Positions 32,418-42,429 of a stretch of 49,016 nt of DNA are shown piece by piece; position 1 is the first letter of the stretch; each line of letters starts with the position of its first letter. Below the pieces are notes generated by a model that was not told the origin of the DNA, searched no databases, and worked only from the letters and a program-made list of their open reading frames with translations. Source of the DNA: Solobacterium sp. (lineage in GTDB: Bacteria > Bacillota_I > Bacilli_A > Erysipelotrichales > Erysipelotrichaceae). Position numbers and translations under genes: made by a program. The DNA is taken from the NCBI GenBank assembly GCA_017433125.1, contig JAFRHT010000063.1:1-49016 (forward strand). The letters run 5' to 3'.

Positions 32418-33929
32418 ATGGCCAAATATTACGAAGAACCATCCCATACTTTCAGTGAATATCTTCTGATTCCGGGTTTTACGGGGGAAGAAAACATTCC
32501 CGATAATGTTTCTCTGCGTACACCGCTGGTAAAATTTAAAAAGGGAGAAGAACCAGCCATTTCCCTGAATATTCCTATGGTTTCTGCTGTCATGCAGTCG
32601 GTATCCGGGCCGGATCTCGGCATTGCCCTGGCCAAGGAAGGCGGAATGGCTTTTATTTTCGGTTCGCAGTCGATTGCCAGCCAGGCGGAAATGGTAGCCA
32701 AGGTCAAGAATTACAAGGCCGGGTTTGTACCGAGTGATTCAAATGTGAAGCCGGACACAACCATCGGGGAAATGCTTGATCTGCTGCATGAGACGGGGCA
32801 TTCCACTATGGCGGTTACCGATGACGGCTCTGCCAACGGCAGGCTGCTGGGCATGCTGACAAGCCGTGACTATCGGATCGGTCATGTCAATATGGATGAC
32901 AAGGTTGAAAAGTACATGACCCCGCGGGAAAAACTGGTGGTCGGCAAGCTTGGCAGTAATCTCAGTGAATGCAATGACATGATCTGGGATCACAAACTGA
33001 ATCAGCTGCCGATTGTTGATGAGGAAGACCGCCTGCAGTACCTGGTTTTCCGCAAGGACTACGATTCCCACAAGGAAAACCCGAATGAAATACTGGATTC
33101 CGAGAAGCGGTTTATGGTCGGTGCCGGCATCAACAGCCGTGACTATGCCGAGCGGGTACCGGCACTGGTGGAGGCCGGCGTTGACTGCCTGGTCATTGAC
33201 TCCTCGGAAGGGTATACTATCTGGCAGAAAAAGACGATCGAGTGGATCCGTGACCATTACGGTGACACTGTCAAGGTCGGTGCCGGCAATGTCGTTGATG
33301 CGGACGGTTTCCGGTATCTGGCGGAAGCCGGGGCAGATTTCGTCAAGATCGGCATTGGCGGCGGCAGTATCTGCATTACCCGGGAGACCAAAGGCATTGG
33401 CCGTGGTCAGGCGACAGCCGTAATCGAGGTCGCCAAGGCCAGAGATGAATATTATAAGGAAACCGGTATTTATGTGCCGATCTGCAGTGACGGCGGCATT
33501 GTCTACGATTATCACATTACCCTGGCCCTGGCCATGGGCGCGGACTTTGTCATGCTGGGCCGTTACTTCTCGAGATTTGAAGAAGCTCCGGGTGAAAAGC
33601 TGGTAGTTAACGGTGCGTATGTAAAGGAATACTGGGGAGAAGGTTCCAACCGGGCCAGGAACTGGCAGCGGTATGATCTGGGCGGGTCAAAGACCAAACT
33701 GACATTTGAAGAGGGTGTTGATTCTTATGTCCCGTATGCCGGACTTCTGAAGGACAATGTGGCGGTGACAACCGCCAAGGTCAAGTCCACCATGTGCAAC
33801 TGCGGCGCCCTGTCCATTCCGGAACTGCAGGCCAAGGCAAAACTGACACTGGTATCGGCAACATCCATTGTTGAAGGCGGTGCCCACGACGTTATCGTCA
33901 AGGCGCACGACCGGGAATACAACAAGTAA
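32418..33929 (+). CDS. guaB: IMP dehydrogenase
   Basis: Converts IMP to XMP with NAD+, the committed step of guanine nucleotide synthesis; 503 aa. A TIM-barrel core is interrupted by two CBS domains (about 95-220). The catalytic loop reads [12 protein letters not shown] with Cys as nucleophile. The flap and mobile loop region is EGSNRARNW. This [10 protein letters not shown] variety resembles the roughly 500-aa IMPDH form of various gut Firmicutes. GGAGGAG lies upstream of ATG 32418. An in-frame start at 32349 is rejected because it begins before the -10 and adds non-conserved residues. A terminator follows. Confidence 0.96.
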
Positions 33930-33937
33930 AAACACAG

Positions 33938-33971
33938 AAAACGGCAGGCCGGCAGGCATTGCCGTTTTTTT
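33938..33971 (+). terminator. Terminator after guaB
   Basis: AAAACGGCA (33938-33946) and TGCCGTTTT (33960-33968), loop of 13, followed by T. It ends 14 bases before the -10 of the next gene. Confidence 0.9.
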
Positions 33972-33984
33972 ACGCACAATGCCG

Positions 33985-33990
33985 TATAAT
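33985..33990 (+). promoter_or_regulatory. -10 element of the CAP-domain gene
   Basis: TATAAT, six bases before the ATG at 33997. No convincing -35 is seen; the place where it should be is taken by the guaB terminator's T tract. Confidence 0.6.
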
Positions 33991-33996
33991 GGATTC

Positions 33997-34668
33997 ATGG
34001 AATCCGCTGTTGTCATTGGAAATAAGAATCTGCGGGATTTCTTTGTCTGCCGCGGGGCGGACGAAGCTGTCAGGATCCTTGATTTCGGCGCGGAAAAATG
34101 GCGGGTCAGCGCTGGAAAAAAGGCCGGGCGGACTGTGTACGGCGCGGATGGCGACGCAACCGCGGTGCCGAATGTAAAAAGGGCACTGGAGCTGATTATC
34201 GAAGGCAACCGGCAGCGGCAGAAGCACAATCTTCCCAGCCTTGCTGTCGCCGATGAACTGATGGCCATGGCCGCAGTGAATGCCAATATGTCAGCTGTAA
34301 CCAAAACGCACTGGCTGGGCCTGCGGGAAGCATACGGCCTGCAGTATACCGGTGAGAATCTTGCCTGGGGTTATGAGAATCCCTTTGCGGGCTGGTACGA
34401 TGAAGAGGGCGGGTTATACGCAGCCGGCAGCCGTGCCGGGATCGGCCATTACCTGAATCTGGTCAATCCGGAAAATGAAGCAGCCAGACGCTATACTGCC
34501 TGCGGTTTTGCCGTAACATGCCGGCCTGGGGAAATGCTTACTGCGTGCCAAGAATTTGCGACAGATTTCGGTCCCGGCAATACGCCTGCCGGAACACGGA
34601 TTACACTTGAAAGGGCTGTATCAGCGGAAGAGTATCTGAATGATTTTCTGCGGTATGCGGCCGGATAA
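33997..34668 (+). CDS. CAP (SCP/PR-1-like) domain protein without signal peptide
   Basis: 223 aa. The C-terminal part (about 65-195) has the CAP pattern: NRQRQKHNLPSLAVADEL, A-x6-H near THWLGL, GENLAWGYENPFAGWYDEEG, GIGHYLNLVNP. The His and Glu residues of the CAP cavity seem present. The family is normally secreted, but no signal peptide or membrane anchor is visible. The N-terminal 60 residues are not recognised. I choose ATG 33997 from the TATAAT six bases upstream; a longer frame would begin inside guaB. No Shine-Dalgarno site, so leaderless initiation is likely. The membrane protein 27 bases downstream may be co-transcribed. Confidence 0.78.
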   Translation: MESAVVIGNKNLRDFFVCRGADEAVRILDFGAEKWRVSAGKKAGRTVYGADGDATAVPNVKRALELIIEGNRQRQKHNLPSLAVADELMAMAAVNANMSAVTKTHWLGLREAYGLQYTGENLAWGYENPFAGWYDEEGGLYAAGSRAGIGHYLNLVNPENEAARRYTACGFAVTCRPGEMLTACQEFATDFGPGNTPAGTRITLERAVSAEEYLNDFLRYAAG

Positions 34669-34695: not shown

Positions 34696-36183
34696 ATGAT
34701 AGTGGATGCATTTTTGACAGAATTATTCGCACCGGGCTCTTTTTTAGGCCTGCCTTCCGCGTATGTCTTTGCCGGTCTGGCAATGCTGCAGATACTGGGC
34801 TGTATCGGCTCATGGAAGGTTTTCGCAGCCGCCGGCAGGACAACCTGGCATGCATTTGTGCCGGGTCTGTATCACTATGATCTGTACGATATTGCCTGGA
34901 CCGGGAAAGCCGGTATCATGGCGGCGCTCATGCGCCTGCTGCTCTGTCTGACGGCCCCGTACGGAGGGGAAGTCCGCCACGGAGGTCTGGCCCTGCAGTT
35001 CTTTATCATTCTGTCAGTTGCGCATTTTGTTTTCTCGGTCATCATGAAACTGAAACTGTCACGGTCATTTGACCGGAATCTGACCTTTGCGTTCGGGCTG
35101 TTCTTCATGAATGAAATCTGCCTGTTCCTGCTGGGGCGGAAACCGGGTGAATACTTAGGCCGGACCCGCTACAGAAAAGCACCGAAAAAGGGCATATCCA
35201 GGGCACAGAGAAACCGAGACTTCATCATTACGCTTTATCAGCGGCGCAGCATCATAGCGCTGGCTGCCAGTTCCCTGGTATGTGTTCTGACCTTCCGGGC
35301 GATCGCCGGCGGCCTGATCCAGAATCCCAGCGAGATCACACCGGAGCGGGGTGAGAATCTGTATAAACTGTTTACCGTGAATTCCAATACACTGTCGATG
35401 CTCGCGGCTTCGTTCATGATTCCCTATGCCATTGAGGGTGTCCGCCGGAAAAGACTGTCCTTTCCGAAATGGGTGATCCTGCTGCAGTACAGCGGTGCGA
35501 TCTGTACAACGCTGACCATGATCTTTGCCCTGACGCTGATCTGGCCGACGCTCGGGACTGTGGCTGTGACCGGCATGAACTTCTGGCTGCATATCATATG
35601 TCCCATTCTGGCCCTGATACTGCTGTTCAGCGTGGAGACGGATGACATGACTATCAGTGTTACTGACAGCCTGATCTGTCTGATCCCGTTCTTTGTCTAT
35701 GCGGTGGTCTATATTGCCAATGTGTATCTGATCGGTGAGACATTCGGCGGCTGGCGGGATATCTACCGGCTGATCACATATCTGCCGGCAGTGGTTTCGG
35801 CGCCGCTGATGTTCATGCTGGGCTTCGGGGTGGCCAGCCTGCTGCGCTTTGTATACAACCGGCTGTCCGTATACCGCCACAGGAAACTGGTGGGGCAGTG
35901 GGCGGATGATATAGACCCGGTGGAAGTGAAGGTCGGCATTCTCGGTATCGGCCGCTACAACGGCCTGCATTCCGAGCCGTACAATATTACACTGCCGCTG
36001 GACATGTTTCAGGCGATTACGGAGAAATACGATATTCCGGCCCATGATCTGAACCGGGCGTATCTCGTCGGTGTGGAAGGAGGCGTCGAAGACAGAAAAG
36101 TGCGGCTCGAGGACCGCATGGAATGGCTTGGTTCGCTGATCGGCATACCGGAAAAGAAATACCGGGAGGAAAAAGAAAGATAG
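34696..36183 (+). CDS. Polytopic membrane protein, function unknown
   Basis: 495 aa. The N-terminal block (about 1-150) has four hydrophobic segments and the pattern SWKVFAAAGRTTWHAFVPG with a following YDLYDIAW. The same kind of block opens the ABC ATPase encoded at 37129-38493 (IWKILEKCHQKGFWGLIPG). A second block of about six helices (about 180-400) resembles Pr6Pr/FAR-17a-like membrane domains. The hydrophilic C-terminus (about 410-495, HRKLVGQWADD onward) is cytoplasmic by composition. GGAAGGA precedes the ATG. The function is unknown; the shared block suggests work together with the ABC pair. Confidence 0.7.
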   Translation: MIVDAFLTELFAPGSFLGLPSAYVFAGLAMLQILGCIGSWKVFAAAGRTTWHAFVPGLYHYDLYDIAWTGKAGIMAALMRLLLCLTAPYGGEVRHGGLALQFFIILSVAHFVFSVIMKLKLSRSFDRNLTFAFGLFFMNEICLFLLGRKPGEYLGRTRYRKAPKKGISRAQRNRDFIITLYQRRSIIALAASSLVCVLTFRAIAGGLIQNPSEITPERGENLYKLFTVNSNTLSMLAASFMIPYAIEGVRRKRLSFPKWVILLQYSGAICTTLTMIFALTLIWPTLGTVAVTGMNFWLHIICPILALILLFSVETDDMTISVTDSLICLIPFFVYAVVYIANVYLIGETFGGWRDIYRLITYLPAVVSAPLMFMLGFGVASLLRFVYNRLSVYRHRKLVGQWADDIDPVEVKVGILGIGRYNGLHSEPYNITLPLDMFQAITEKYDIPAHDLNRAYLVGVEGGVEDRKVRLEDRMEWLGSLIGIPEKKYREEKER

Positions 36184-36203
36184 CAGATGATCTGCTATCT
36201 TTT
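36176..36203. terminator. Bidirectional terminator containing both stop codons
   Basis: AAAGATAGCAGA (36176-36187), loop TGA, TCTGCTATCTTT (36191-36202). The TAG of the rightward gene (36181-36183) and the TAG of the leftward permease (36195-36197) lie at mirror positions in the two arms. Pyrimidine-rich runs follow on both sides. Confidence 0.88.
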
Positions 36204-37136
36204 ATCTCTGTCGATGAACTGCAGCAGCATGATGGATGCTGCGGACGATACCACAATGACTACCAGGAGGATGGCCCAGCATTTCCAGATCGTACCGGGG
36301 AGATAATTGTAAGCCGGGTTGGTGTTGTATAATCCGGATTCCTGCAGGACCTGGTCCAGTTTTCCTTCCTGCAGGATGGAATCGGTCAGTATTTCGATCG
36401 GCTTGTATCCGTCAATTTCCATGGCCCGGAATTTGAATACCGTATTCCACAGGGTTACCATCGGCTGGGAATTGTAATCTGCCAGCGTACAGAGATCCTC
36501 CAGACCCCAGCGGGCAATGGTCAGGCTGGTCAGTTTTTCTGCCGGTCCTTCCAGATAGATCAGACCGCCTGAAAAGACAAGCTGGAAAATCAGCATGAAC
36601 GGCATGACAGTCATGGCGGTTGTGGTGTTTTTGACCAGGCAGGACAGGGCCAGTGACAGCATGTCGGCCGCATAGGTTATCAGGAACAGGGAGATGCCGA
36701 AGTCGGCCATGAAGCTTCCGGTAATCAGGGATTTGTCCGGAAAATCCATGCCGGCAATGTTGCAGATGACGATCAGGATAACAGTCTGGGCCATGCACAG
36801 CATCATCTGGTAAAGCATATGGGCAACGATATACGAACTGATATACATGCCGGAGCGGTGTTCCCGCTTGATGATCGGGCGTTCACGGCAGACCGACTGG
36901 ATTGAGTTGAAGAAACCGTTCCAGATGCATACGCAGACGAGGGAGAAACATCCTGACAGCGTTCCTTCCTGGGTCTTGAAGATGTTGTTTCCGACCGCAA
37001 AGGTGACCAGGCCGGCAATAATGGCAGCCATCGGCAGGACTTTCCAGTCATTCTGATAGATAAACATCCGCAGCAGTTTGCCGAGATAGATGAATGTCTG
37101 CCTGAAGCGGCCGTTATAACGTATTTTCTTAGTCAT
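36195..37136 (-). CDS. ABC-2 type permease (ABCG-like)
   Basis: 313 aa. After a short cytoplasmic start there are about six hydrophobic segments, arranged as in ABC-2 permeases of the ABCG/WHITE group: FNSIQSVCRERPIIKREHRSGM is the conserved coupling region, and MTVMPFMLIFQLVFSGG matches the central helix region. A soluble loop lies before the last helix. I use ATG 37136 with GAGG six bases upstream; the GTG at 37148 is the alternative. It overlaps the ATPase gene by eight bases. It probably forms a transporter with that protein. The substrate is unknown. Confidence 0.85.
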   Translation of the reverse strand: MTKKIRYNGRFRQTFIYLGKLLRMFIYQNDWKVLPMAAIIAGLVTFAVGNNIFKTQEGTLSGCFSLVCVCIWNGFFNSIQSVCRERPIIKREHRSGMYISSYIVAHMLYQMMLCMAQTVILIVICNIAGMDFPDKSLITGSFMADFGISLFLITYAADMLSLALSCLVKNTTTAMTVMPFMLIFQLVFSGGLIYLEGPAEKLTSLTIARWGLEDLCTLADYNSQPMVTLWNTVFKFRAMEIDGYKPIEILTDSILQEGKLDQVLQESGLYNTNPAYNYLPGTIWKCWAILLVVIVVSSAASIMLLQFIDRDKR

Positions 37137-38493
37137 TTCCGGCCTCACTTTCCATGGTCATACGGGCATACTTTTCAATAAATTCATCAGCCCGGCCTTC
37201 GCCGCCTTCATCCTTGCGGTTGACACACATAACAACACGTTCCATCGTCGGCTGCCCGAAGAAATTTCTTGCCTGATCCGGTGTTCCGAAAAAAGCGAGA
37301 CGGCCAACCCGGCCCGAATCCCTGGCCAGGACAATCACATAATCGAAAAGATCAGCAACCCGGTCCGGAATATGTGTAATGGTAATGACAATCTTGCCGG
37401 TATCGGCAATTTCCTTCAGCTTTTCAAACAGTTCACGGGCGATGACACCGTCCAGGCCGGAGTCCGGCTCATCCAGAATAAACAGTTCCGGATCAGAAAT
37501 CAGTTCCATGCCGATGGAAATTCTTTTCTTCTGCCCGCCGGATTTCTTGGCAACCAGGCCGGAACGGCCGCTGGTCATCCCGAGGGAATCCATAACTTCG
37601 GTAACCCGGTTGTGAATCTCGGAACTATTCGTGCCGGCCGGAAGCCGCAGTTTTGCTGCGTCCTGAAGGGTGCTGTTGACGGTATCGTTCTGCCGCAGGA
37701 GGTCCTGCTGGGGCACATAGCCGATCCGATACTTCATCTGTTCATAATTCTCATAGACATCAACGCCGTTGAGCAGGATGGTGGCATCAGCTTTTTCATA
37801 GCCGTTGATGGCATTGACCAGGGTAGTCTTGCCGGAACCGGAACCGCCAAGCAGCAATACCAGAGAACCGTTGGGGATCGTCAGGTTGATATCCTTGAGC
37901 AGGTAACGCCGGCGCAGGAAATCCCAGGCTGTCCGCTGCCGGATGTGGATCACCAGGCCATCATCGGAAGCATTATGGTCAAGGGCAGCGGGCAGCACAG
38001 CCGGAGCTGTGCCGGCCAACAGTTCGTTTTCTGCGACCTTGCCGAGATTCACCGGCTGATAGCGTCTGGAATACCCCCACAGGAGGGCAGGGAAGTACGG
38101 GATGGCAGCCCACAGGATGGACCACAGGACAGTAGCGCCGAATGTCCTTGCCAGACCGGCTGTAACCCGGATCTTATATATGATCATAATCAGACCGCAG
38201 GCAATGACCGCAAGCGAAATGAAACGCTGGCAGGGATCATCTGCCGGTATGAAAAGCGATACCGCAAGCAGGAAATACATCGGTATTTCAAATACCAGGG
38301 CCATGACGCCCTCGGATTCACGGCCGGCAGCCTGAGCAAGCTTATAATACCGGAATCCCGGGATCAGACCCCAGAAACCTTTCTGATGGCATTTTTCCAG
38401 AATCTTCCAGATGCCAAGCGCAGTCAAAAACCACGCAGCTGCCTGGTATAAGAGTGAGTATTCATGCATGAGATATTGCATATGGTCTGTCAT
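37129..38493 (-). CDS. ABC transporter ATPase with N-terminal membrane domain
   Basis: 454 aa. The first 150 residues contain four hydrophobic segments with IWKILEKCHQKGFWGLIPG, like the neighbour at 34696. The ATPase follows (about 190-430): Walker A GGSGSGKTT, Q loop YVPQQD, signature KSGGQKKRISIG (an LSGGQ variant with Lys), and Walker B LFILDEPDSGLD, then H-loop THIPD. ABCG-like half transporters usually have the ATPase first and the channel in the same chain; here the channel is a separate gene and the extra membrane block is in front. No clear Shine-Dalgarno site precedes the ATG, and TATAAT lies about 30 bases upstream. Confidence 0.9.
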   Translation of the reverse strand: MTDHMQYLMHEYSLLYQAAAWFLTALGIWKILEKCHQKGFWGLIPGFRYYKLAQAAGRESEGVMALVFEIPMYFLLAVSLFIPADDPCQRFISLAVIACGLIMIIYKIRVTAGLARTFGATVLWSILWAAIPYFPALLWGYSRRYQPVNLGKVAENELLAGTAPAVLPAALDHNASDDGLVIHIRQRTAWDFLRRRYLLKDINLTIPNGSLVLLLGGSGSGKTTLVNAINGYEKADATILLNGVDVYENYEQMKYRIGYVPQQDLLRQNDTVNSTLQDAAKLRLPAGTNSSEIHNRVTEVMDSLGMTSGRSGLVAKKSGGQKKRISIGMELISDPELFILDEPDSGLDGVIARELFEKLKEIADTGKIVITITHIPDRVADLFDYVIVLARDSGRVGRLAFFGTPDQARNFFGQPTMERVVMCVNRKDEGGEGRADEFIEKYARMTMESEAGND

Positions 38494-40635: not shown

Positions 40636-40646
40636 GATAATTGCGT

Positions 40647-41426
40647 ATGTTCAGAAAAAGGGGCATTGTCTGGCTGATTTACCGTATATTTACCGTTTTC
40701 ATGGCCTGTGTGTTCGCACTGGGTGTTTTCAGTTTTGCCACGGTGCCGCAGAAAGCCCGGGCAGAAGCGGAAGAAATCGAGGAAATGCTCCGTAAGAAAC
40801 AGGAAGAGGAAGCAGAGCGGATCCGCCGGGCTCAGGAAGAACTGCTGCGGCAGCAGAAAGAAGAATATGAAGCACACAAGGCGATATATGACCTGCAGGA
40901 TGCTTATACGGATGCGTCCGAAATGCATGTAACAGGCATTGGTGATTCCGTCATGCTGGCAGCCCTGACAGAACTGTATGAGGTTTTCCCAAACGGATAT
41001 TTTGATGCTGTCTTCGGGCGGACGATCTACGAGGGGATGAATACGCTGTATTACCTGGAGGAAAACAATGCCCTGGGTGATGTGATCGTCTTTTCCCTCG
41101 GCGCAAATTCCTATATCAATGAAGAGGATGTGGAAGAACTCATCCAGCACAGCGGCGGTAGGCCGACATTCTGGCTGACGACCGTCGGTGTCACCAATGA
41201 TTCCAATGAAAAAACACGCAATGTTGTGGCCCGCCATGATGACGCATATATGGTTGAATGGGAGGATCTGGCACTGAAGCATGTCAGTGAGTATATCCTC
41301 GCCGACGGCCTGCATCCCAATACGGCAGGCTCGAAGGCCTATGCCGAACTGATCCGGGAAACGATCAACCGGGAGATACTGGAGAACTGGAAACGGAGTT
41401 ATGACCCGCGGCAGGAAGAGAATTAA
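40647..41426 (+). CDS. SGNH-domain cell-surface esterase/transferase (half of a split OatA-like pair)
   Basis: 259 aa. A membrane anchor (about 7-30) is followed by a Glu/Arg-rich coiled coil (about 38-78) and an extracellular SGNH domain: block I GIGDSVM with nucleophile Ser101, block III SLGANSYI, and block V DGLHPNTAGSKAYAELI with the Asp and His. In OatA this domain transfers acetyl to peptidoglycan MurNAc and follows the acyltransferase in the same chain. Here it is a separate gene placed first. It overlaps the acyltransferase gene by 26 bases. A TTG at 40641 is an alternative start. There is no Shine-Dalgarno site, so initiation may be leaderless. Confidence 0.87.
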   Translation: MFRKRGIVWLIYRIFTVFMACVFALGVFSFATVPQKARAEAEEIEEMLRKKQEEEAERIRRAQEELLRQQKEEYEAHKAIYDLQDAYTDASEMHVTGIGDSVMLAALTELYEVFPNGYFDAVFGRTIYEGMNTLYYLEENNALGDVIVFSLGANSYINEEDVEELIQHSGGRPTFWLTTVGVTNDSNEKTRNVVARHDDAYMVEWEDLALKHVSEYILADGLHPNTAGSKAYAELIRETINREILENWKRSYDPRQEEN

Positions 41427-42429
41427 CGGCCTGGACGGTCTGCGGACACTGGCCCTGGCCGGTGTGCTGCTGTACCATGCGTTCCCGCGGCTGATGCCCG
41501 GCGGGTTTTTCGGTGTTGTCATTTTCTTTGTCATCAGCGGGTTTCTGACTGCTTATGCTGCAGTCAGCCGGGGCCGGATCGGGGTTCTTACGTACTATCG
41601 GAAACGGTTCGTTCGGCTGTATCCTACACTTGTCATTGTTTTATTTGTTACGGTGGAAGCCCTGGCTCTGACCGACCGGTTCCGCCTGATCAACGCGCAC
41701 GAAGAAGTAGCCAGTATTCTGTTCGGATACAACAATTACTGGCAGATTGCCAAACAGGCGGATTATTTCGCCAACCTCAGCAATACGTCGGCCTTCACGC
41801 ATCTCTGGTATATCGCGGTGCTGGTCCAGTTTGAACTGATCTGGCCATGGCTGTATCTGGTCTGCCGCAGAAGCGGAAAAGGCCTTAAAATGATAGGGAT
41901 TCTGACCCTGATCTCATTGTTTATCATGCCGGTCCGGGCACTGTTGACAGATGCTTCACAGACCGTTCTTTACTACAGTACGGATACCCGCATCCATGCG
42001 TTGCTGCTCGGGGCTCTGCTGGGCTGGCATGCGGCTGTCCGAAAACAGAAGAAAAAGCGGATGAAGCCGCTGCTGTCACTTATGATCGGACTGGTCTACA
42101 TTGTCATATCAGTGTACCTGTTCCTGAAGGTTTCCGGTACGGATCCGGCTGTCTGCCGATACGGCCTGGTGCTGTACGCGCTGTTTACGGCGCTGATGCT
42201 GTGGTGCTGTGTCAGCAGCAGAAACCTCGGCCGGCTGCTTGATCTGCCGCCTGTGAAGAAAGTCAGCGCGTATAGTTATGAAATCTATCTCTGGCAGTAT
42301 CCGGTGCTGTTCCTCTTCAGCATGAAGGGATGGACAGCCGGGTGGCAGTATTCCCTTCAGCTGGTTCTGATTGCTGTGCTGAGCGTCTGGACGCACACAT
42401 TTGTAAACAGTCTGGCAAAACGGTTCTGA
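41401..42429 (+). CDS. Acyltransferase-3 family membrane protein (other half of the OatA-like pair)
   Basis: 342 aa, about ten hydrophobic segments. The family signatures are at the start: RINGLDGLRTLALAGVLLYHAF with the conserved His, the motif VIFFVISGFLTAY, and RKRFVRLYP. It moves acetyl groups across the membrane to the extracellular SGNH partner. It ends after the last helix without an SGNH domain, which fits the gene split. The ATG at 41401 lies inside the previous gene and has only a close-set GGAG, so translation is probably coupled. Confidence 0.9.
   Translation: MTRGRKRINGLDGLRTLALAGVLLYHAFPRLMPGGFFGVVIFFVISGFLTAYAAVSRGRIGVLTYYRKRFVRLYPTLVIVLFVTVEALALTDRFRLINAHEEVASILFGYNNYWQIAKQADYFANLSNTSAFTHLWYIAVLVQFELIWPWLYLVCRRSGKGLKMIGILTLISLFIMPVRALLTDASQTVLYYSTDTRIHALLLGALLGWHAAVRKQKKKRMKPLLSLMIGLVYIVISVYLFLKVSGTDPAVCRYGLVLYALFTALMLWCCVSSRNLGRLLDLPPVKKVSAYSYEIYLWQYPVLFLFSMKGWTAGWQYSLQLVLIAVLSVWTHTFVNSLAKRF

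Follow-up and report, generated by a model that had tools for sequence, protein, structure and literature searches.

Apparent replacement of FHA domains by a DUF5684-type membrane block in an exporter ATPase of Solobacterium, and the same block on a putative lipid enzyme beside it

What does it mean that one and the same membrane block stands at the N-terminus of two otherwise unrelated proteins whose genes face each other on a bacterial contig? We address this question for a stretch of 49,016 nucleotides from Solobacterium sp. (GenBank assembly GCA_017433125.1, contig JAFRHT010000063.1, positions 1 to 49,016; hereafter the window), in which the gene of a 495-amino-acid (aa) membrane protein converges on a permease gene and the gene of an ATP-binding cassette (ABC) ATPase. 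An earlier note, made from the letters of this DNA, had described a common four-helix block in the two proteins and had read the three genes as a joint export or sensing complex. As the best explanation of the whole, and one that we hold with somewhat better than even confidence, we propose that a block of DUF5684 type has taken the place of FHA domains in the ATPase of a two-gene exporter, and that the 495-aa protein is a separate, block-bearing enzyme of lipid type.

Sequence profiles assign the shared block to the DUF5684 superfamily of membrane domains and show it on two proteins that are otherwise unrelated. When 25 ATPase N-termini, of which the program's filter kept 22, were compared with 10 N-termini from the family of the 495-aa protein, the profile-profile probability was 98.2 and the expect value (E) 3e-14 (for a single comparison) over 139 columns, with controls made of reversed profiles and of another, unrelated membrane domain staying at probabilities below 1. 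A hidden Markov model (HMM) of 21 ATPase blocks (alignment A3, from which near-copies and loci L023 and L024 were dropped) found, with a threshold of E 0.001, only two matches in the genome of the window, namely the ATPase (3.5e-60) and the gene of the 495-aa protein (5.5e-10), such that the similarity first noticed is borne out; a chance motif is ruled out by the profile comparison, the genome-wide search and the reversed controls. Both blocks also match a profile of 13 stand-alone DUF5684-like proteins (hhalign probabilities 99.3 and 99.5; L172, L175 or L178 were omitted from the stand-alone sets of this comparison and of the block tree below). Pfam DUF5684 (PF18936, gathering score 27.4) matches the 495-aa protein at 25.4 bits (E 2.3e-5) in hmmscan and at 29.7 bits in the genome search, and is further matched by 20 of the 46 rows of the 495-aa-protein alignment and by 8 of the 21 ATPase blocks at E up to 0.1 (best 0.00017). 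The literal motif given in the earlier note (W-K-x8-G and onward) is absent from both proteins when sought as a regular expression; a looser form, WK-x9/10-[WF]-x2/3-[IV]PG, is found in both, and a W-x-x-L-I-P core is kept in both blocks. Its count of four helices agrees with the AlphaFold model of the 495-aa protein and fails for the ATPase block, where three hydropathy peaks pass the threshold and no fourth does. A PDB sequence search with the block profile gave no match up to E 1.

In the ATPase, the block precedes a nucleotide-binding domain (NBD) with a Walker A, an SGGQ signature, a DEP Walker B and an ITH H-loop, and an ABC2_membrane permease gene lies within 200 bp in 34 of 34 loci compared (those of block type or of the FHA type of the window's genus; second divergent copies in G004, G005, G025 and G035 and single-chain G024 and G095 were omitted). 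These are the marks of an ABC2-type exporter, the part of the proposed complex that stands, and the two genes would together make one such exporter. Among 272 genomes of the family, 44 hold the ATPase at E 1e-50, and in nine genomes of the genus the match covers just the NBD, beginning no earlier than residue 161, at 57-61 percent identity. Two of these nine (L028 and L029) contain two FHA stretches each by Pfam, with the remaining NBD-only matches being labelled FHA from sequence by eye; Pfam confirms further FHA-ABC proteins in G025 and G259 (two loci), as well as FHA-ABC-permease proteins in a single chain, with one FHA stretch in G104 and two in G024. No FHA is among the Pfam matches listed for the window ATPase (25 of 27 families). 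In a tree of 39 NBDs, a branch (97/87) separates 25 block-bearing rows from the remainder; next to them stand 12 FHA-labelled rows (5 of them Pfam-confirmed, as are both single chains, and the rest labelled by eye), with the two single-chain FHA-ABC-permease proteins outside; L214 was excluded by the P-loop filter, several near-copies were not entered, and the mycobacterial transporter Rv1747, to which we return below, is not in the tree. The simplest reading of this tree is a single replacement, whereby the FHA domains of the relatives were apparently exchanged once for the DUF5684-type block. The best NCBIfam match of the ATPase is TIGR00955, an ABCG-type model of one-chain proteins (165.9 bits, not reaching its cut-off of 736 bits). 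A second, divergent ATPase match (42-50 percent) was seen in the block-type genomes G004, G005, G025, G035 and G114, with a Pfam FHA only in G025.

The FHA-type loci possess a further gene that bears on what may have been exchanged. Immediately upstream of the ATPase, 7 of the 8 FHA loci of the genus for which upstream DNA is available encode a protein with a single membrane helix and a length of about 115-130 aa (a further FHA locus, in G001, has no upstream DNA and is outside this count). A tblastn search over the collected loci found it nowhere but in those FHA loci and never beside a block ATPase, and across the 70 genomes of the genus copies at E below 1e-20 are confined to the same 7 genomes; G050, a genome with no ATPase match, has an interrupted copy. 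The representative at L073:6835-7206 and its relatives in L028, L031, L074, L222, L223 and L224 show a conserved tail after the helix. Joint absence of the small protein and the FHA domains would fit FHA domains that bound either this protein or a partner phosphoprotein. Accordingly phrased as a model, a phospho-dependent contact, perhaps with the upstream single-helix protein, would recruit or gate the ATPase in the FHA relatives, and in the window the block would keep the ATPase at the membrane beside its permease or a partner, perhaps as a hub for localisation and interaction like the TMD0 domains of other transporters. The exported substrate could be an envelope lipid or glycolipid, a guess by analogy with Rv1747. 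Several observations weigh against the proposed replacement: Pfam finds no DUF5684 match in the ATPase block of the window itself, the root of the NBD tree relies on two very long branches, the FHA-labelled row L215 in that tree is uncertain, and a PDB sequence search with the NBD returned ABCA3 and ABCA4 ahead of the ABCG-type CDR1. To these are added the FHA locus of G018, which has upstream DNA and lacks the small protein, and weaker relatives of that protein in block genomes, including the window's own, one of them right after the permease in G020.

The 495-aa protein carries its block on a different kind of partner. Its block is followed by a six-helix domain (AlphaFold, whole-protein pLDDT 87) whose relatives are stand-alone proteins in many Firmicutes and some spirochaetes. 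The NCBIfam family Pr6Pr (NF038065) is matched by 12 of the 46 relatives (best 2e-7) and MAGa3780 by 11, and the window protein itself has no NCBIfam match, NF038065 (curated cut-off 30 bits) included. Profile comparison of the second domain with 21 HMM-found Pr6Pr proteins (from 30 loci, the others being omitted mainly for in-frame TGA) gave a probability of 97.7 and E 2.4e-12, with FT-x-x-SN and H-x-x-x-P aligned. Residues T227, T274, H299, P303 and Y335 are invariant in 46 of 46 rows of the 495-aa family, with P331 kept in at least 90 percent; T227 and H299 are likewise invariant in a 41-row alignment (A2 and A4 comprise 45 and 40 loci hand-picked from 80 for completeness and spread), and T, T, H, P, P and Y recur without exception, in the same order and at similar spacing, in the 21 Pr6Pr proteins. 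From the T-x-x-SN and H-x-x-x-P pattern we had presumed an AIG1-like fold before any structure search. The model of residues 166-400 (pLDDT 95) found as its best solved-structure match TMEM164 (9lw1), with Z 9.8 and a root-mean-square deviation of 4.1 over 178 of 235 residues at 8 percent identity, a Z value below about 13, a range in which the arrangement of helices can by itself make bundles match. The activity of AIG1 is described as dependent on a Thr and a His (PMC8394805), and TMEM164 is described as moving acyl chains between phospholipids (PMC10474074). Because of the fold match, the Thr and His of AIG1 and the acyl transfer by TMEM164, we consider the second domain likely to be a lipid acyl hydrolase or acyltransferase, a putative assignment by homology and fold. 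The 495-aa protein would then be a separate unit, its block anchoring or docking a six-helix enzyme with an invariant Thr/His pair.

This assignment has its own counterweights. T227 lies within a peptide pattern that was used to find relatives (34 of 46 rows), so its invariance is partly by construction; 11 rows without that pattern and with the second search pattern still keep T227. The runner-up structure has Z 7.4, with designed bundles at 7.2-7.4; a Foldseek search of the 166-400 model against the PDB returned nothing at E 1e-3, with TMEM164 not among the best 50 matches listed; and Far-17a_AIG1 (PF04750) appears under its cut-off in 1 of 46 rows (E 0.091, not the window protein) and in 4 of 10 Pr6Pr proteins. 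When the whole 495-aa model was used in a fold search, the matches were unspecific (best Z 6.2). PDB sequence searches returned no match up to E 1 with the 495-aa profile and, with the six-helix-domain profile, a single match at E 1.6 that we took as noise. Two observations on this domain stand apart: nucleopolyhedrovirus proteins in BFVD resemble the 166-400 model (Foldseek probability 1.00, template-modelling score about 0.5-0.65, E 1.8e-3 at best), and a 610-aa frame of Butyrivibrio sp. Su6 (L108:5065-6894) has a different hydrophobic N-terminal region, with no match in an NCBIfam scan, before a Pr6Pr/TMEM164-like domain.

Where else the block occurs bears on whether it does more than hold proteins to the membrane. 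Across 115 genomes of the family, the block profile matched in 23 genomes from 13 of 59 genera, and 26 of the 32 matches fall in open frames that, at 109-201 aa, are as long as stand-alone DUF5684 proteins. One longer frame (L229:2916-5573, 886 aa) places the block (E 3.3e-6) before a Peptidase_C11 domain of the clostripain family (Pfam E 6.8e-34); by eye, L175 too has a similar block before Peptidase_C11. Such a scatter, with the block alone or on an ABC ATPase, a lipid-enzyme-like domain and a C11 peptidase, is what one would expect of a mere anchor or stabiliser that has neither partner nor sensing role and came into this neighbourhood by chance, and apart from the ATPase, the permease and the 495-aa family no gene family is common to more than 3 of 21 clustered loci. 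The 495-aa protein, however, already has a six-helix membrane domain and would need no anchor, and the W-x-x-L-I-P core is kept in both proteins, which leads us to treat this alternative as a serious but minority possibility. At the other extreme, and as a rather unlikely extension of our own proposal, DUF5684 could be a docking module that brings the exporter ATPase, the TMEM164/AIG1-like enzyme and the C11 peptidase to a common membrane platform in gut Erysipelotrichaceae, replacing phosphothreonine-dependent FHA recruitment in one exporter lineage. Were this so, a phosphorylation-controlled transporter would have turned into one under direct membrane control.

Less probable again is a three-protein complex held together by binding between the two DUF5684-type blocks, which would place a lipid-modifying enzyme at a lipid exporter. 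A match of some kind to the 495-aa protein is found at E 1e-20 in 45 of the 272 family genomes, several of them through frames of about 300-370 aa that match just the second domain. Full-length genes (counting contig-end-cut copies in G006 and G016) come from 13 genomes in the genus of the window and from 16 in genera g37 and g63. All 13 of the former hold an ATPase of the group, as against 41 of 70 overall (hypergeometric 0.0004), and 10 of 13 hold the block type, as against 32 of 70 (0.014), both values uncorrected for phylogeny. These counts, the block common to both proteins and the adjacency of the 495-aa gene to the ATPase-permease pair in G000, G111, G006 and G019 speak for joint function; the four are all close relatives, and in G019 the adjacency spans a contig break. 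Nevertheless, the genes are apart in the other 9 of the 13 genomes with both, the ATPase is of the block-less FHA type in 3 of the 13, the 16 genomes of g37 and g63 have the 495-aa gene without the ATPase at E 1e-50, and 28 of 41 ATPase genomes of the genus are without a full-length 495-aa gene (uncorrected for gaps in metagenome-assembled genomes). A conserved three-gene cassette is rejected by the adjacency and presence counts.

The histories of the blocks point the same way. In a tree of 51 blocks, a single clade (98/98) unites the 18 that come from the 495-aa family, and the 17 of the ATPases group with two stand-alone proteins from a different genus (99/96), so the clades are separate. 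Forcing ATPase and 495-aa-family blocks into one clade was not rejected by the approximately unbiased (AU) test, on which the complex can draw; at p 0.078, a one-clade origin is therefore disfavoured. Exchange of the block specifically between the two proteins is rejected on the separate clades, with the single clade keeping its AU p of 0.078. As a general rule a three-protein complex is thus improbable, and only in the four close species is it at its most plausible; the inclusion of the 495-aa protein is where the earlier proposal of a joint complex gives way. Convergent likeness of unrelated four-helix proteins, to which a weak pairwise BLASTP of the two proteins alone (43 aa, E 0.001) might point, is very improbable given the near full-length profile match, the genome-wide specificity and the negative reversed controls. 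In the literature searched, with most subscription papers outside its coverage, we found no paper naming DUF5684, none on Pr6Pr and none on FHA with an N-terminal transmembrane region.

The arrangement of the locus itself (Table 1) is as first described: the open reading frame (ORF) list and Pfam place three genes in convergent order, with the permease as a separate gene whose likely start, an ATG at 37136, overlaps the ATPase stop (ATGACTAA). A 12-bp hairpin includes the stop codons of both convergent units, which makes the suggested common terminator plausible as far as a pattern match goes. On the same strand as the 495-aa gene, a CAP-domain (PF00188) gene at 33868-34668, of uncertain start codon, ends 27 bp upstream of it. 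Overlapping genes at 40641-42429 are, by eye, what we take to be an SGNH-type hydrolase and an acyltransferase-3 membrane protein, possibly a split O-acetyltransferase; an NCBIfam scan gave no match for the presumed hydrolase. In a homologue search, the closest named records were from Solobacterium sp. and other metagenome-assembled Erysipelotrichaceae, many of them from ruminant gut.

Table 1. Positions of the genes, domains and invariant residues discussed, in window coordinates.
Feature	Position	Strand	Evidence
495-aa membrane protein gene: DUF5684-type block, six-helix Pr6Pr/TMEM164-like domain, helical tail	34696..36183	+	ORF list, AlphaFold pLDDT 87
DUF5684-type membrane block, 495-aa protein, about residues 21-150	34756..35145	+	Pfam, profile comparison, AlphaFold
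Six-helix lipid-enzyme-like domain, 495-aa protein, about residues 170-400	35203..35895	+	Pr6Pr profile comparison, model
Invariant T227, 495-aa protein	35374-35376	+	alignment
Invariant H299, 495-aa protein	35590-35592	+	alignment
Palindromic hairpin, likely bidirectional terminator, spanning both stop codons	36176..36202		pattern match only
ABC2-type permease	36195..37148	-	PF01061 51.5 bits
454-aa ABC ATPase, N-terminal DUF5684-type membrane block	37129..38493	-	PF00005 91.2 bits
DUF5684-type membrane block, ATPase, about residues 14-147	38053..38454	-	profile comparisons
Nucleotide-binding domain, ATPase, about residues 190-415	37249..37926	-	Pfam, NCBIfam, tree

For us, the main remaining interest lies in the FHA-to-DUF5684 swap and in the lipid-enzyme-like domain. 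The former would be a natural domain swap, with related exporters of similar NBDs bearing either FHA domains (usually together with the small single-helix protein) or a membrane block, and a comparison of the two types would probe the role of FHA domains in Rv1747-like exporters. DUF5684 gains defined fusion partners, and the 495-aa family offers a pointer to bacterial lipid enzymes of TMEM164/AIG1 type.

Among known systems, the nearest to the exporter is Rv1747 of Mycobacterium tuberculosis, described as a transporter of the ABCG subfamily that carries two FHA domains, of which FHA I binds phosphothreonine on a regulator, and that shares an operon with the kinase PknF (PMC3908365; PMC5549992). 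The window's exporter shares with it the combination of ABC ATPase and ABC2-type permease, and the window NBD groups with FHA-ABC ATPases of its own family. It differs in having a membrane block instead of FHA domains (Rv1747 being taken here from its published description) and in encoding NBD and permease as two genes where Rv1747 has one chain; no kinase gene was noticed beside the window ATPase in the ORF list, in which no search aimed at kinases was made. DUF5684 (PF18936) proteins have the same block, which in the window is joined either to an ABC ATPase or to a domain of Pr6Pr type. Pr6Pr (NF038065) proteins share the aligned FT-x-x-SN and H-x-x-x-P cores and the common invariant residues, whereas the 495-aa protein carries in addition the block and a helical tail. 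Among the TMEM164/AIG1/ADTRP lipid acyl enzymes, TMEM164 is the best solved-structure match of the 495-aa protein, and the invariant Thr and His are a likely point in common, the equivalence of active sites being putative. Finally, the TMD0 of TAPL is described as an N-terminal four-helix membrane domain that serves localisation and partner binding (PMC6199259); the likeness to it, an N-terminal membrane domain beside a transporter core, is drawn by analogy, and in the window the block sits on the ATPase and not on the permease chain.

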